Below, piece after piece: positions 2,945 to 59,006 of a DNA stretch of 64,000 bases. A model generated the notes under the pieces. The model saw nothing but the letters and a program-made list of their open reading frames with translations. It had not been told where the DNA came from and made no database searches. The stretch comes from Westiellopsis prolifica IICB1. GTDB taxonomy: Bacteria > Cyanobacteriota > Cyanobacteriia > Cyanobacteriales > Nostocaceae. The stretch is taken from contig NZ_NAPS01000001.1 in assembly GCF_004323185.1 (NCBI RefSeq), positions 1,590,101 to 1,654,100 of the forward strand, given 5' to 3'. The translations under genes were made by a program, and so were the position numbers. Each line of letters begins with the position of its first letter. Positions within the stretch are counted from its first letter, which is position 1.

Positions 2945-3323
2945 AGATTGGGGGGATGAGGGGGATTGGGGGGACAAGGAGAACAAGGGAAGGGACTGTT
3001 TGATTTTATGAAGTCGTCTTCAGACGATTTGCGCTATTAGCGAAGGGTTTAAACCCTTTGCTGCCAAAGCTAAGTAAACATCCACAAAGGATTGCAAAGA
3101 TATTTAACTCATTCGTAAGTATTACTAACACTTTTTCTAGAATATTATAGAGAATATTTGAGAGATTTAATAACTCTGAATCTCAGCAATTAAAACACTA
3201 ACCGCTACTAGAATTTGCAACTACGAAATATACAGATTTAACTGCACAAAAAACTGAAATATTGCTTCTTTCACTCATTTTCAACAATTAATGTACATTC
3301 TCTTTTCCGAGGAGGCAGAAACG
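2945..3323. other. Intergenic region with foldback hairpins upstream of psbA variant
   Basis: After a G-rich stretch (2947-2997) there are two tight hairpins. TCGTCT-TC-AGACGA is at 3014-3027 and the perfect palindrome AAGGGTTT/AAACCCTT is at 3043-3058. They could end photolyase transcription and resemble other multi-hairpin elements in this window. The remaining 260 bp are AT-rich and presumably contain the psbA promoter; no convincing -35/-10 pair was identified. Confidence 0.5.
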
Positions 3324-4442
3324 ATGACAACTATCATTCAACGTCGAAAAGAATTTGATTTTTTTAATCTATGGGATCGATTTTGTGCGTGGATCACCAG
3401 CACTAAGAATCGAATTTATATCGGCTGGTTTGGGGTGCTGATGATTCCGACTTTGCTCGCTGCTACTATTTGTTTCATTCTCGCTTTTATTTTGGCCCCT
3501 GGCGTAGATATGGAAGGTATTAGAGAGCCAATAAAAGGTTCTTTAATGGATGGTAACAATTTGATTACCGCTGCTGTTGTGCCAACTTCTGCTGCGATTG
3601 GCTTGCATTTTTATCCTATTTGGGAAGCTGCTTCCTTAGATGAATGGCTTTACAACGGCGGTCCCTATCAGTTGATTGTGCTGCACTTTTTAATTGGTAT
3701 TTGGTGCTATTTGGGAAGACTTTGGGAACTTAGCTATCGCCTTGGTATGCGTCCTTGGATTGCCGTTGCTTTTTCTGCACCAGCCGCCGCCGCAACAGCT
3801 GTCTTGCTAGTTTACCCCATTGGTCAAGGTAGCTTTGCTGACGGTTTACCTTTGGGAATTGCAGGGACATTCCACTTTATGATGGCCGTGCAAGCAAATC
3901 ATAATATCCTGATGCATCCATTCCATATGTTGGGGGTTGCTGGAGTCTTTGGTGGCGCATTTTTAAGTGCCTTGCATGGTTCGTTAGTCACCTCAACGCT
4001 GATTCGCAATACCGACGAAAATGAATCTATCAACGCTGGGTATCGACTTGGTCAACAGGAAAGGACTTACAGCTACTTGGCAGGACATTATGGTTTTTTC
4101 GGTCGCCTGCTGATTCCCCCTGTTGCTAGTCGAAATCACCGCACTTTCTATTTCCTGCTTGCTTGTATGCCAACAATAGGTATCTGGTTTGCTGCATTAG
4201 GTGTTTGTTCTGTTGCCTTCAACCTGAATGGATTTAACTTCAATCACTCTATCTTAGATAGTCGGGGAGCAGTGATTCCCACAGATGCTGACATCCTCAA
4301 TCGAGCTAATCTTGGTATACAAGCAATGCACGCTCCTAATACCCATCATTTCCCACTGATTTTGTCTAGCGGTATACTAAATCATGAGGTAGATTCCAAC
4401 GCTGCTCGATCCCAATTTCCTAAATTTGCAGCTGCATCATAG
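3324..4442 (+). CDS. psbA: Divergent 'rogue/sentinel-type' photosystem II D1 protein
   Basis: D1 is the photosystem II core subunit that holds the manganese cluster, Tyr-Z, pheophytin and the QB site. This copy starts at ATG 3324, preceded by a strong GAGGAGG at 3309-3315; the in-frame ATG at 3291 is less likely. In standard D1 numbering, Tyr161, Asp170, His190, His198, His215, His332 and His337 are kept. Glu189 is Asn, Glu333 is Ala, Asp342 is Ile and the processed C-terminal Ala344 is Ser. In the acceptor side residue 130 is Leu, Ser264 is Ala, Phe265 is Ser and the iron ligand His272 is Tyr, with one residue inserted near 253. Such a protein should not support water oxidation. This fits the 'rogue' or 'sentinel' D1 class known from nitrogen-fixing cyanobacteria. 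ChlF (chlorophyll f synthase) is the alternative, but no far-red gene cluster is nearby and D170 and H332 remain. Confidence 0.9.
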
Positions 4443-5332
4443 GTACTCTGCAAAAAGGCAAGGAGTACTGCATCCGGATCATCAGCTTGCCGTAATGCTT
4501 CATATGGCAAAATGAACTCTTGCATCTGGGGACTGTAAAATGCTTCCTTTGGTTGGATGGGGTAGTCTTTAAATCCCTCTGGTTCGGGATAAGCATAGGA
4601 GTAAAAAACAGGTTCGGCCACTGCTCCACCACCAGGCCAAAACCCAAAGCTACTCACTTCATGGGAATAAGCCTCTTTTGTTACCCAATCTGCCATGTTG
4701 GGAACCCCACCTGGATGTTCTGGAGCGCGACGCCCAGAGAAACGGGTAAAAGCCAAGTCAAAGCTACCCCAGAAAAAGTGTACAGGGCTACATTTACCAA
4801 TAAAACGTGAGCGAAATACTTTCAACACCCTATCTGCTTGTACCAGAATACGCCAAAACCTTTGGGCGTACTCCGGATCATAAGCTGCATGTACGTGATC
4901 TTGATCAAAGGGAATTGGCTGGTTTACTTCTTGTGGACTTGTCCAAATCCGAACGGAAATGCCAATTGCGCTCAGTGTACCCATAACATCTTGGTAGAAG
5001 TCAGCTACCGAGCGAGGAGCAAGGGCGATTATTCTGGTGATCCCGTCGCTAGTCTCGATTTTTAACTGATGCTCAAGAAAGTCAAAGCTAATCTCTAAGG
5101 TGCGTGTTTCGTAAGGAATTGAAGAGGTCGTTAGTCCACGTGGGGTTACATACAGGGTAGAGTGCCACCAGTGGTTAATTTTGGGAGCCAGCGCCAGCCG
5201 AATTTTACCAATGATTTGAGTCCACAAATGCAGCGTTGCATATGTATCTTGCCATGCTGCAACAGGCAGACTGGGCCAGGTGGTATCAGTGAGTGTACTA
5301 TCAACAGGTTCTACCATAACGGAAACCTCCAT
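4382..5332 (-). CDS. DUF5996 family protein
   Basis: A 316-residue soluble protein of unknown function. The opening W-P-x-L-P, D-T-Y-A-T-L-H-x-W-T-Q-I-x-G-K-x-R-L-A-L-A-P and N-H-W-W-H are characteristic of the DUF5996 family, whose members occur singly in many bacteria. Later conserved-looking parts include [13 protein letters not shown] and W-P-G-G-G. The start at 5332 (or the Met six codons in, about 5317) is plausible. The 3' end overlaps the end of the psbA variant by 61 bp (4382-4442), so the two genes are convergent and read through each other's terminal codons. No enzymatic activity can be inferred safely. Confidence 0.85.
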
Positions 5333-55047: not shown

Positions 55048-56700
55048 CTAGTTACTCGAAGCTTGGTTTTGATTTAGTTGCTGCAATTTTGTATCAATTC
55101 TCTGCTCCGCCGCTAATCGCTCTAAAGCATAGTCATTTAGATCTACGAAATACATGTTAGCCAATAATGTTGGGTGAACAACATTAATAAGTCGATATAT
55201 TTCTTGAGCAACTATGCGGTAGGAAGGATGTCCTTGTCGCGAACTGCGTAATTCAACAAGGTGATAAACTTCACGTAGATTCAACTTTATTCGCCAACGT
55301 ACTCGATAGGCAAAGGGTACAACATATTGTGCTGCATCTGGTAAATATGAGCTAATCAACTCAGTTGTTTCGGCTGCATATTCCAAAGCTTTACAGTAAC
55401 TTTGGCTTAGGTTCGCTTCTTCTAGTTCTGGTGGAACTACATACCCATGACGAACACAGTAGTGTTGACGTTCTTGTGTGAGAACACGATGTCGATGCAG
55501 ATCACGATACGCACCAAGATCAGCCAGCACATCAAAGGTGTAATAAGTTTCTTCAAAAGCGCGTCCAGGACGATGGAAGCGTGAGGAGCGATCGCCTACA
55601 TAGGTATTGATAATCTCAACTCGCTCTTGAGTTGATAAAGCAGTGACGTATGCTTTGATTTGCTCAAATGTCAAATCAGTGTGAGGATAAAGAATCGCTG
55701 CAACAACCTTGACTTCTGCATCTGGATCATACTCAACTAATTGAACAGTAGAGCTTGATCCTGGCTCAATTTGTCCTAAATGTTTTTGTGTAAGTAATTC
55801 TGTGTGTTCCCAATTTCTTGATAAATAACGGGCAAATTGAGCGCCCCGTTCAGTTTTGGCACGCTTGACAAATGAAGGTATGATTTGATCTAGTTCTTGT
55901 TGCATAGAAACTCCAAGAGTACGCACTTCTTGGTGAGGTGAAGCAGCAAGTTTGACTAGCAAATACTCAAATGCTCGTCCATTGCCAAACAACCCAACAT
56001 TAGTTAGAGTTGCCATTGGCAGTAAACCACGCAACAAGTCAAAAGTTTTAGCCCTTGTGGCACTGTTATATGCCCGCTCAGAAGTAGTAGTATCTCTGGG
56101 AGTACGAGCTTGTACCCAAATTAAAAGAGGCTCAATTAACTCAGTATACGTATCGAATAAATGATCTAATGTTGCCTCATAACGCTCTGCATGGCTTGAT
56201 ACCATAATCGACGGTTCGCGATAGTAGCGGTAGCGTCCGTTGATTTTGCGATTAAATGGAACGTATCTGGTTGACTTTTCTAGCGGGGAAATTCCTAAGC
56301 GACTGTCCTCTAGAACTTTAGCTGCAATATTACTAATTCCTTCACAAGCAAGGTGTGCGCCTCCTAATTCTGCGACTGAGTCATCACCATAACCAATCAA
56401 GACGCGATCATAAAAAGCCTCTGCTTGTTGAATCGCCACTAATTGATCAGCGTTATTTTCAGATCCTCCACCAACGATACGAGTAAAACTAGCTTCCGGT
56501 GCTTTGATAAACTCATCTAGTAAGATACGGCGTAAACTTTTATCACTACGGCTGTAGCGCGAGAACAATGCACCCTTAACAACTTCCGGCAAATTCCGCA
56601 AACCAAAAACAGCACGATCTGAATTTGTGATAAAAGGCTCTAACAATAAGCTCTCCTGTTCGGTCAGCAACTCTTCCAAAAATTCTTCCATATCTACCAC
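55048..56700 (-). CDS. Double-length ThyX-like (FAD-dependent thymidylate synthase) protein
   Basis: A 550-residue protein that reads as two ThyX-fold halves (about 25-255 and 290-520). Orthodox ThyX has 200-250 residues and one R-H-R-x7-S motif. Here the second half has D-L-H-R-H-R-V-L-T-Q-E-R-Q, and the first has S-T-R-Y-V-P-F and R-Y-Y-R-E-P where the flavin-binding elements should be. W-R-I-K-L-N-L-R-E-V-Y-H-L-V-E-L-R-S is the ThyX C-terminal helix, with the R-x-x-x-Q/G-H-P-S-Y-R ending. ThyX makes dTMP from dUMP with methylene-THF and NADPH. This longer family is recognisable in cyanobacteria and other bacteria, but its activity may differ. It is divergent from the dUTPase/DCD gene pair, with a 246-bp gap. 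Confidence 0.85.
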   Translation of the reverse strand: MVDMEEFLEELLTEQESLLLEPFITNSDRAVFGLRNLPEVVKGALFSRYSRSDKSLRRILLDEFIKAPEASFTRIVGGGSENNADQLVAIQQAEAFYDRVLIGYGDDSVAELGGAHLACEGISNIAAKVLEDSRLGISPLEKSTRYVPFNRKINGRYRYYREPSIMVSSHAERYEATLDHLFDTYTELIEPLLIWVQARTPRDTTTSERAYNSATRAKTFDLLRGLLPMATLTNVGLFGNGRAFEYLLVKLAASPHQEVRTLGVSMQQELDQIIPSFVKRAKTERGAQFARYLSRNWEHTELLTQKHLGQIEPGSSSTVQLVEYDPDAEVKVVAAILYPHTDLTFEQIKAYVTALSTQERVEIINTYVGDRSSRFHRPGRAFEETYYTFDVLADLGAYRDLHRHRVLTQERQHYCVRHGYVVPPELEEANLSQSYCKALEYAAETTELISSYLPDAAQYVVPFAYRVRWRIKLNLREVYHLVELRSSRQGHPSYRIVAQEIYRLINVVHPTLLANMYFVDLNDYALERLAAEQRIDTKLQQLNQNQASSN

Positions 56701-56946
56701 CTCAGTTTAGTGCTGCGATCGCTCCTTGCTTATTTTGCCTTAGCTATCAGTCGCTTAACTTTTGCAAGCAGGCGACTTTGAGAACTCATGTATTTCTAAC
56801 CAGAATATTCAAGTCACCTATCCTACCATTTAGATAGCTTTAGACTACTAATTTTTCGTTGTGGGTGATAGACAAATACTGAATACAGTATAAATAGTAT
56901 CCAGTAGGATATAATTGCCCAACAATGTTTTAAAAGCAACATAGCT
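56701..56946. promoter_or_regulatory. Divergent promoter region of the ThyX-like and DCD genes
   Basis: An AT-rich 246-bp gap from which both genes are read. TTGCAAGCAGG at 56762-56772 and TATAAT-type sequences (56890-56916) are present, but no pair was fixed confidently. A shared regulator of both directions is conceivable. Confidence 0.35.
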
Positions 56947-57648
56947 ATGAGTGTTATCCCTTTTATATTAGGTACTACCAATAGAACAATTGTGCAAACA
57001 AGAAAAGAATATGAAGATGCTGGTGGTTTGGATGGAGACGTAATATTTATACAAAATCTTGATCGTGATCAAATGCTTGATACAAAATCCAGCAATGCAA
57101 GTTATGACTTAAGGGTTGGTGACGAATACAGAGATCATAGAGACTCTGGTAAAACTGATTTATTAGATAACGGTAAAATATGTCTTCAACCAGGATCTGC
57201 AATCATCATTGAGACAGCTGAATCAGTTCAGTTTCCAAAATCTAGATTTGGTCATATAGTTCCAAAAGTGTCTCTTCTACAGGATGGTTTATCAAATACT
57301 TCATCAAAGATAGACCCTGGATACGAAGGAAAACTTCTTATCACAGTTTTTAACTTGGGAAAAAGAACAATTTGCCTTAAAAAAGGACAAACTTTTTGTA
57401 CACTTTATGTGCTTAGTATCCAAGGTGATGTTATACCTTATAAAAAAGGAAACCAGAGAATTTATGGAAACTCTAGAAGGGGTTTTATTGGTAAAGCTAG
57501 AGATTTTATTGAGACAAATCAAACATTTATTACAGGCTTGCTGCTTGTTATCAGCACAGTTACAGCACTAATCCAACTTGGAGAACTTGTAAATAAACAA
57601 CAAGTAAAAATGCCCCAAGAAATAAATAGAGAACATATAATAAAATGA
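56947..57648 (+). CDS. Membrane-anchored dUTPase/DCD-fold protein lacking the deaminase Glu
   Basis: A 233-residue protein. The trimeric dUTPase/dCTP-deaminase fold is visible. It has S-Y-D-L-R-V-G-D (52-59), a central P-K-V-S-L-L-Q-D-G-L region (106-115) and K-I-D-P-G-Y-E-G (121-128) with T-V-F-N-L-G (133-138), resembling dUTPase motif III. In dCTP deaminases the G-R-S-S motif and the Glu of the T-L-E-F strand are essential. Here they are P-K-V-S and Thr133, so deamination is unlikely. A hydrophobic helix (about 194-212) followed by a basic tail suggests membrane attachment, which I do not know from dUTPases or Dcd. The stop overlaps the start of the next gene (ATGA, 57645-57648). Confidence 0.75.
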   Translation: MSVIPFILGTTNRTIVQTRKEYEDAGGLDGDVIFIQNLDRDQMLDTKSSNASYDLRVGDEYRDHRDSGKTDLLDNGKICLQPGSAIIIETAESVQFPKSRFGHIVPKVSLLQDGLSNTSSKIDPGYEGKLLITVFNLGKRTICLKKGQTFCTLYVLSIQGDVIPYKKGNQRIYGNSRRGFIGKARDFIETNQTFITGLLLVISTVTALIQLGELVNKQQVKMPQEINREHIIK

Positions 57649-58211
57649 TTCTTTCTGATCAAGATATAATTACAGCTATTAATAAGGGTGAACTTCAAGT
57701 TTCACCTCTAAATCAAGAGTTTATACAACCAGCGTCAATAGATCTTACTTTATGCTCAACAATCCGAATATTTGACTTACAAAACACAGAATATATAGAT
57801 ATTAAAGAGTGGATAGATCCTTCTAAAGAAGTAGAGTTAGAAAAGGATGGAGCTTTCCTATTACGCCCAGATGATTTTATACTCGGAGCGACAGTTGAAA
57901 ATATAACTCTACCTAGCTATTTAGCTGCAAGAGTTGAAGGACGAAGTTCTCTTGGTCGCCTTGGATTAATGATTCAAGCATCAGCAGGTTACATATCTCC
58001 AGGTTTTTCAGGCAGTATCACTTTAGAAATCAAAAATATTTCTCGTATACCATTAAAGCTATATGTTGGGATGCGTATTGTACAGATTATCTTTGAAGTA
58101 ATGTCCTCTCCAGCTCTCAACCCATACGGTCATCCAAATTCTAATCACAAGTATCAGTATCAAAACAAACCAACTTCTAGCAAGATCTGGAAAGATTTTA
58201 AAGATTCCTAA
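57645..58211 (+). CDS. dCTP deaminase-like protein
   Basis: A 188-residue Dcd-fold enzyme that should convert dCTP to dUTP, feeding dUMP to thymidylate synthesis. Diagnostic are S-I-D-L-T-L (31-36), G-R-S-S-L-G-R-L-G-L-M (99-109) and I-T-L-E-I-K-N (125-131, catalytic Glu128). The H/R-I-D-P-G of canonical Dcd is Y-I-S-P-G at 116-120, where the Asp (linked to dUTPase activity in the bifunctional archaeal DCD-DUT) is Ser. Deaminase activity is therefore more probable than dUTPase. The last 20 residues are polar and basic. It is translationally coupled to the membrane-anchored partner upstream. Confidence 0.8.
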   Translation: MILSDQDIITAINKGELQVSPLNQEFIQPASIDLTLCSTIRIFDLQNTEYIDIKEWIDPSKEVELEKDGAFLLRPDDFILGATVENITLPSYLAARVEGRSSLGRLGLMIQASAGYISPGFSGSITLEIKNISRIPLKLYVGMRIVQIIFEVMSSPALNPYGHPNSNHKYQYQNKPTSSKIWKDFKDS

Positions 58212-58424
58212 TTGTTTGAGATTTTTGAGTGAATACTGAAGAATCAGACATTTATTGCTCATCTATAGTCAAAGCTTTACTTGCCAAGAAATCTTGAGCT
58301 TCTGGAGAAGAATTTGTAACTTGGCTGCTTTGGTGCTTTTAACACCCTTTCGCTAGCTGATATAAATTTCTCTAATCGTGGTTTATTACGAAGAGATTCT
58401 TCTCCAGTATAGGTTATTAAATTA
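58212..58424 (-). pseudogene. Possible frameshifted gene remnant
   Basis: In the gap between the two convergent deaminase genes the minus strand has a protein-like reading: T-Y-T-G-E-E-S-L-R-N-K, then L-E-K-F-I-S-A-S-E-R-V. It apparently shifts frame near P-K-Q-P-S and continues A-Q-D-F-L-A-S-K-A-L-T-I to a stop near 58258. No start codon is present. It may be the decayed end of an old gene downstream of dcd. Confidence 0.3.
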
Positions 58425-59006
58425 TTAAACCCTGGCAAGAGTTACAGTTTGAGGTTGATCCTGATACTTTCCAAAGCGATCAGCGTAAGTTGTTTGACAT
58501 GGCTCTCCTTCAAAGAAGAGAAGTTGCAGGACACCTTCATTAGCATAAATTCGACAGTCTGCACTAGAGGCATTACTAAATTCTAAGGTTAAGTAGCCTT
58601 CCCATGAAGCTTCAGCAGGTGTTATGTTCGCAATAATCCCACAACGTGCCATCGTAGATTTTCCAATACAAATAACTGTGATGTTAGGAGGAATACGCAA
58701 TCGCTCCAACGAGACACCCAATGCATATGAATTTGCTGGAATGATGAAAAAAGACCCATCTTCATCAGTTTGTAGTGGAATACGTTCCAGGTTATCAGGG
58801 TTAAACCGTTTAGGATTAACGACCGTACCTGGAATGTGTCTAAAAACACGAAAATCTGTTGGAGCTAGTCTCAAGTCGTATCCGTAGCTGGACAACCCAT
58901 AGCTAATAACTCGTCTATCATCTATTTGGCGGACTAGAGAACTTTCAAAGGGATCAATCATCCCTAATTTAGCTTGTTCAATAATCCATTTATCGTTTTT
59001 CAACAT
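58425..59006 (-). CDS. dcd: dCTP deaminase
   Basis: It converts dCTP to dUTP. The 193-residue protein has the classic order S-Y-G-L-S-S-Y-G-Y-D-L-R (33-44), G-K-S-T-M-A-R-C-G (about 114-122), P-A-E-A-S-W-E-G (about 129-136) and Y-L-T-L-E-F-S-N with the catalytic Glu. The start is MLKNDKW at 59006. It is the ordinary housekeeping form, and the two plus-strand DCD-like genes are extra copies of a different branch. Its 3' end faces them. Confidence 0.95.
   Translation of the reverse strand: MLKNDKWIIEQAKLGMIDPFESSLVRQIDDRRVISYGLSSYGYDLRLAPTDFRVFRHIPGTVVNPKRFNPDNLERIPLQTDEDGSFFIIPANSYALGVSLERLRIPPNITVICIGKSTMARCGIIANITPAEASWEGYLTLEFSNASSADCRIYANEGVLQLLFFEGEPCQTTYADRFGKYQDQPQTVTLARV

Follow-up and report, generated by a model that had tools for sequence, protein, structure and literature searches.

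The closest described relatives of the protein considered here are the rogue or sentinel D1 proteins of Group 2, among them PsbA4 of Cyanothece 51142 and the rogue D1 of Crocosphaera watsonii; proteins of this group are expressed in the dark and lack Mn ligands (PMC4773611), and changes at their QB site have already been described (PMC4582080). Their role is debated: under the sentinel idea they should be inactive placeholders, but the effects of deleting psbA4 in Cyanothece 51142 are small, and acceptor-side changes seen in the dark arose without psbA4 (as reported in PMC9640542, which also cites Wegener for the absence of photosynthesis in Synechocystis when PsbA4 is its only D1). Group 2 and Group 3 psbA genes have further been linked with sqr (PMC5061849). 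ChlF, the super-rogue D1 of Group 1, is likewise a paralogue of D1 in which the Mn ligand set is missing, and Gln252 is an independent hallmark of it (PMC10535343). The low-oxygen D1' form of Group 3 resembles the present gene in being an extra psbA copy beside normal ones, but it has the full Mn ligand set (as does locus L005, below), which is found in standard D1 (Groups 3 and 4) and is absent from the protein described here. Finally, the atypical D1 of Gloeobacter kilaueensis (Group 0), compared here by its description only and standing outside the alignments, has been described as missing ligands of both the Mn cluster and the non-heme iron (PMC4390838); it therefore offers a precedent for the loss of an iron ligand in an atypical D1. 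The iron site itself consists of D1-His215, D1-His272, D2-His214 and D2-His268 together with bicarbonate (PMC9490181), and perturbation of the contacts of D1-Arg269/His272 or D2-Arg265/His268 harms both QA-to-QB transfer and bicarbonate binding (PMC13272216).

The window, by which the whole analysed stretch of 64,000 nucleotides is meant, carries at 3324–4442 on the plus strand (on which all features below lie unless noted) an intact reading frame for a D1-family protein of 372 residues. It starts with the ATG at 3324, preceded by AGGAGG (3310–3315) as a likely ribosome-binding site; a further in-frame ATG lies at 3291, and the nine aligned orthologues start at the equivalent of the Met at 3324. 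The contig that carries the gene is 3.48 Mb long, in a genome of 7.31 Mb. Its product scores well over the cut-off of Pfam Photo_RC, and its top NCBIfam match is psbA TIGR01151, the standard-D1 equivalog, at 590.3 bits, which falls just short of the curated cut-off of 596.05. Identity to the standard D1 of its own genome is about 68–69%, and the best among the matches listed from 512 cyanophage psbA records reaches 68%. An AlphaFold2 model built from 38 sequences is poor (mean pLDDT 50.7). Among the Pfam hits of the scanned reading frames of the window there is no sulfide:quinone reductase model.

The comparison covers 201 distinct sequences (80 standard D1, 92 Group 2 and 29 ChlF), which were kept from 253 loci if they had at least 330 residues, contained no X and were distinct over the first 350 residues, shorter or ambiguous rows being left out. 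Group 2 was defined by the lack of the full Glu189, Glu333 and Asp342 set and of the QD motif, so that every Group 2 sequence lacks one or more of these three ligands by definition. The wide searches for relatives scored, per genome, at most the best nine candidates (family search) or the best five (further search); from the latter the best 30 loci were taken, ahead of about a dozen others with comparable scores. For ChlF, 388 genomes of the class were searched with a DNA pattern for the QD motif, and 30 matched. Within the same family, at least 50 of 217 genomes have a match at 78–100% identity and at least 634 bits; seven more matches, at 70–71% identity and 582–595 bits, represent a second Group 2 type, and five of the seven lie in genomes that lack the first type. 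Among the named relatives are Atlanticothrix, several Nostoc, Hydrococcus and Crocosphaera watsonii WH 8501.

A tree of 78 rows (49 Group 2, 19 standard, 10 ChlF; the root was not inferred) places the 49 Group 2 rows on one side of a branch with support 100/96, recovered in 100% of 200 bootstrap trees, and separates ChlF (100/100) and standard D1 (93/93) from it as branches of their own. The C. watsonii WH 8501 sequence (L034), which is of the known rogue kind, falls inside Group 2, and the window protein lies within a subclade of ten rows (100/99), with its nearest row, L196, at 95%. When the organism's D2 proteins served as outgroup, they fell within Group 2 at the end of a branch of length 5, and no weight is given to that rooting. 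The window gene is a Group 2 (rogue/sentinel) D1 and hence of a known kind; this assignment, proposed in the preliminary description, is borne out by the tree, in which the gene groups with Group 2 and not with normal copies when ChlF, rogue and standard D1 are analysed together, and by a one-residue insertion. All 92 Group 2 sequences have the insertion after His252, and it is found in none of the 80 standard and none of the 29 ChlF sequences; it is diagnostic of Group 2.

Residues are numbered, and changes named, by alignment to a standard D1 of the same genome (L004). On the donor side, the Mn-cluster ligands are changed at E189N (3897–3899), E333A (4329–4334, together with the retained His332), D342I and A344S (4359–4367, Ile342-Leu343-Ser344 for Asp-Leu-Ala), while Asp170 (3840–3842) is retained; positions 341–344 read LILS, and the LDLA motif for C-terminal processing is absent. 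On the acceptor side, S264A and F265S alter the QB pocket (4125–4130), and H272Y replaces a non-heme iron ligand (codon TAT, 4149–4151). Position 130, which contacts the pheophytin, is Leu (3720–3722), and the single extra residue immediately after His252 is Tyr (4089–4091). Additional changes are N87A, N181H (3873–3875), F186V, E244R and S268H (4137–4139); the fourth of these removes Glu244, a residue close to the bicarbonate (site according to PMC9490181). Tyr161, His190, His118, His198, His215, Tyr246 and His252 are all retained, which speaks for retained cofactor binding. All ten residue statements of the preliminary description (Asn, Ala, Ile and Ser at 189, 333, 342 and 344; 170 and 332 unchanged; Ala264, Ser265, Tyr272 and Leu130) are correct, as are its inserted residue near 253 and its claim of alterations on the donor as well as the acceptor side. 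A misalignment of 264 and 272 caused by the insertion is ruled out: the GRL motif and Arg269 are in register, any other placement would cost one more deletion and one more insertion, and alignment to the sequence of a solved chain (7yq2_A) is concordant, with Ala opposite Ser264, Ser opposite Phe265 and Tyr opposite His272. Equivalents of His272 and Ser264 elsewhere in the protein, which had been raised as a way in which the description might fail, are not seen; in sequence alignment the equivalents are Tyr and Ala.

Most of these changes are shared by the group. Glu333 and Asp342 are absent from 92 of 92 Group 2 sequences (with one gap at 342), Ser264 from 90 and Phe265 from 79, and position 130 is Leu, Phe or Met in 71 of the 92 (it is Glu or Gln in 80/80 standard D1 and Glu in 29/29 ChlF). 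Conversely, Group 2 keeps Asp or Glu at 170 in 89/92, His332 in 89/92 and His337 in 92/92, and has His181 in 78/92 and His268 in 56/92; in ChlF, both His332 and Asp170 are gone in 29 of 29. The losses on the donor side and at the QB side are general in Group 2, and therefore only the loss of His272 sets the window protein apart. Of the features listed in the preliminary description, the loss of His272 is thus distinctive, and those at the Mn cluster, at 264/265, at position 130 and the insertion near 253 are not. Apart from the positions changed in the window protein, Ser198 is found in six Group 2 D1 proteins of genus g85 (L206, L211, L212, L213, L216, L217), with Gln198 in a seventh locus (L215), and also in a named Synechococcus MAG (L064); position 198 provides the axial ligand to a P680 chlorophyll.

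None of the 191 background sequences (80 standard, 29 ChlF and the 82 other Group 2) lacks His272. In the window's subclade, with ten members from four genera, it is lost in seven: six have Tyr (the window and genomes G057, G108, G109, G083 and G084), one has Asn (G004), and three keep His (G008, G048, G017). The codons at this position are CAT, TAT and AAT, the latter two each one base from CAT; the tree requires three changes between His and non-His, and Tyr may or may not be the ancestral state in the subclade. Since Tyr272, encoded by TAT, recurs in five other genomes, an assembly error is unlikely. Counted over positions 10–345 only, the 191 background sequences show no variation in 51 columns, of which the window protein changes only 272. 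As a control, among the other 82 members of Group 2, 58 change none of the positions conserved to at least 99% (computed with the close kin of each sequence left out), 16 change one and eight change two; a single changed conserved position is not rare in Group 2 (24/82 change one or two), and what is notable at 272 is that a cofactor ligand is concerned and that the loss is repeated across most of a clade. His268 does not serve as a general replacement, as L151 and L152, which lack His272, have Pro268; in the other five sequences without His272, the window protein included, a substitution by His268 is possible. The ten members also have Val186 and Asn189 in common. Two subclade members (L154, L101) carry Tyr for His332, and one Group 2 sequence, that of C. 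watsonii WH 8501 (L034, 5001–6044), has Gln at 215, another ligand position of the non-heme iron.

Compared with the described rogue proteins, the window protein has the same tree branch, lost Mn ligands, changed QB pocket and absence of an LDLA end, but differs in the loss of His272, in Val186 and Asn189, and in a foreign C-terminal tail of 22 residues. As judged from its residues, it is a lineage-specific variant of Group 2 D1 in which a non-heme iron ligand has been lost within one lineage. The literature searched contains no report of a loss of His272 in a rogue D1, and the main text of PMC12096807 does not mention 'H272'; key papers on rogue D1 lie outside this scope, so that no novelty is claimed.

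The tail stems from the surroundings of the gene. Window positions 3073–4380 match the psbA locus of G057 at 92.5% identity, and the sequence from 4384 onward corresponds to another locus of that genome; the junction falls at the stop codon (4382–4384) of a neighbouring DUF5996 gene, identified by Pfam on the minus strand (4382–5332) and itself outside the finding. The psbA frame has lost its own end and now reads through 61 bases of the complement of that gene (4382–4442), a convergent overlap with the neighbour's 3' end. Only the window has the 22-residue tail among the ten subclade members, and the G057 orthologue ends in SSGKPISVS and adjoins a DUF3987 gene. Upstream, 3073–3323 appears from homology with the G057 locus to be a region travelling with the gene, likely its promoter and 5' leader: in an alignment of the ten members most rows share a block starting near 3073, with no obvious similarity further upstream, and a 14-base core (at most two errors) occurs in this region in 9/10 subclade genes, 2/82 other Group 2 genes and 7/80 standard psbA genes. 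A sigma-70 promoter scan gave no promoter-like site within 3073–3323 and a single one in the region as a whole, inside coding sequence and fewer than in shuffles; there was no terminator. The first 12.5 kb of the window were set against 25 other loci, most of them with only 1.5 kb of flank: none combined psbA with a shared neighbour, apart from three with a weak Usp-domain match. A plasmid collection holds matches in Nostoc carneum NIES-2107 and Nostoc sp. MS1 (AP018183.1, NZ_AP023443.1), which are Group 2 genes by their coordinates, and a further match (75%) in Stanieria PCC 7437. The gene seems, from these alignments, to move together with its upstream region, with the plasmid location and the DUF3987 neighbour hinting at mobility. 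Elsewhere in the window (55051–59006), a ThyX gene adjoins three consecutive genes with dCTP-deaminase-like (DCD) domains.

The preliminary description had called for a check for other psbA copies, and a Photo_RC search of the genome returns eight genes: the window gene, five other D1 and two D2. Four of the D1 genes are standard and lie on one contig (C8), and the fifth lies on another (C7); all five carry the full Mn ligands, and none of the D1 copies of the genome has the Gln127-Asp128 motif of ChlF. Both D2 copies keep the WLHFF histidine, and the translation of L007 shows the HGATVENTLF histidine region. A nifH gene is present, with a score over the cut-off. The full-ligand D1 on the 140-kb contig C7 (L005/L014) falls at the base of the standard rows in a quick tree and may represent the low-oxygen D1' form.

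Comparison of the window gene with each of its nine orthologues in the subclade gives dN/dS values from 0.049 to 0.161 (Nei-Gojobori, first 345 residues; dS reaches 1.35, so that the most distant pairs are near saturation), the top value belonging to the pair with the G004 sequence, which has Asn272. For standard psbA genes from the same genus, ten pairs give 0.025–0.105. Purifying selection maintains the window gene.

The protein is probably a functional Group 2 D1 that replaces the normal D1 in photosystem II when oxygen is unwanted, assembles no Mn4CaO5 cluster and acts as a silent stand-in. The exchange would take place in the dark, at low oxygen or during nitrogen fixation, and the complex with the rogue D1 would be unable to build the cluster; a normal Mn4CaO5 cluster is very unlikely because Glu189, Glu333, Asp342 and the Ala344 terminus are missing (PMC12096807, PMC4773611). 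Leu130, which would make no hydrogen bond to the pheophytin, the changed QB pocket and Tyr272 would together lead mainly to recombination and not to the export of quinol, with the iron bound by the remaining three histidines and by Tyr272 or water, or else lost; the complex would dissipate light as a silent substitute for an active centre, whose place it holds, and the loss of His272 would be a further, lineage-specific step in giving up quinone reduction. We infer that such a complex binds pigments, can separate charge and exports few electrons; most likely it would be an oxygen-inactive photosystem II that is weakened on the acceptor side as well. A purely non-photochemical role, as contemplated in the preliminary description, appears less likely: TyrZ and its partner His190 persist, and so do chlorophyll ligands. 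With His272 still present in three of the ten subclade members, its loss is unnecessary for whatever role the subclade has, and the small phenotype of the psbA4 deletion counsels caution, the stand-in role being proven for no member of the group.

Two further readings deny the gene this role altogether. A decaying or silent copy without function might be suspected from the relocation of the gene and the fusion of its C-terminus to the complement of a neighbour, but is very unlikely in view of dN/dS values far below 1, the intact frame, the ribosome-binding site and the conserved upstream region, and dN/dS together with conservation speaks against a pseudogene. That the protein is a pigment-modifying enzyme of the ChlF kind is hardly conceivable: ChlF belongs to the same fold family and is likewise a D1 without Mn ligands, but the QD motif and Gln252 are present in all 29 distinct ChlF sequences kept from the QD-motif search, where the window protein has Leu127-Gly128 and His252 (neither Gln nor Arg), and it carries the Group 2 insertion and does not branch with ChlF; motif and tree contradict this identity. 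A relaxation of constraint, in which the acceptor side has fallen into disuse in the subclade, His272 drifts by single-base changes that bring no new function and the protein is kept for assembly or structure only, accounts for three changes at one site among ten close relatives with codons one base from CAT, and for the Tyr at His332 in 2/10 members. It is nevertheless unlikely, as the remaining protein is under purifying selection, the window protein keeps 50 of the 51 fully conserved background columns, and Tyr accounts for six of the seven losses, although partly through shared descent.

The donor side raises a different question. The conservation in Group 2 of Asp/Glu170, His332 and His337 is, as a residue pattern, unexplained by a mere placeholder, and some donor-side feature is on this evidence still under selection, because these residues and His181 are kept in Group 2 while His332 and Asp170 are gone in ChlF. 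A reduced metal site formed by Asp/Glu170, His332, His337 and often His181, which would oxidise Mn(II) or another donor and be coupled to a slow or alternative electron exit, would fit the retention of these residues in a group that has lost Glu333 and Asp342 throughout; the ChlF sequences indicate that such retention is not automatic, and D170E mutants trap and oxidise Mn (PMC4773611). This reading is nonetheless decidedly improbable: packing may account for the retention of His337 and His332, Asn189 removes a carboxylate, and the loss of the iron ligand makes the export of electrons harder. Also improbable is a centre, peculiar to this Nostocaceae-like lineage, in which two-electron quinone reduction is abandoned, the iron is ligated by Tyr or absent now that Tyr (or Asn) replaces His272, and a reduced donor site of Asp170, His181, His332 and His337 photo-oxidises a metal ion, making it a light-driven one-electron or purely dissipative device.

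For the debated role of rogue D1, ten close relatives with a natural split at His272 (seven lost, three kept) in an otherwise constrained protein provide a ready-made test of the need for an acceptor side, and the conservation of Asp/Glu170, His332 and His337 across the 92 Group 2 sequences raises the question of a task on the donor side. If the preferred reading, a silent stand-in with a weakened acceptor side, is true, an iron ligand kept in 80 of 80 standard D1 proteins would be dispensable in a photosystem subunit that is under selection; if the one-electron or dissipative reading is true, there would be a second job for D1 besides water oxidation and chlorophyll f synthesis.
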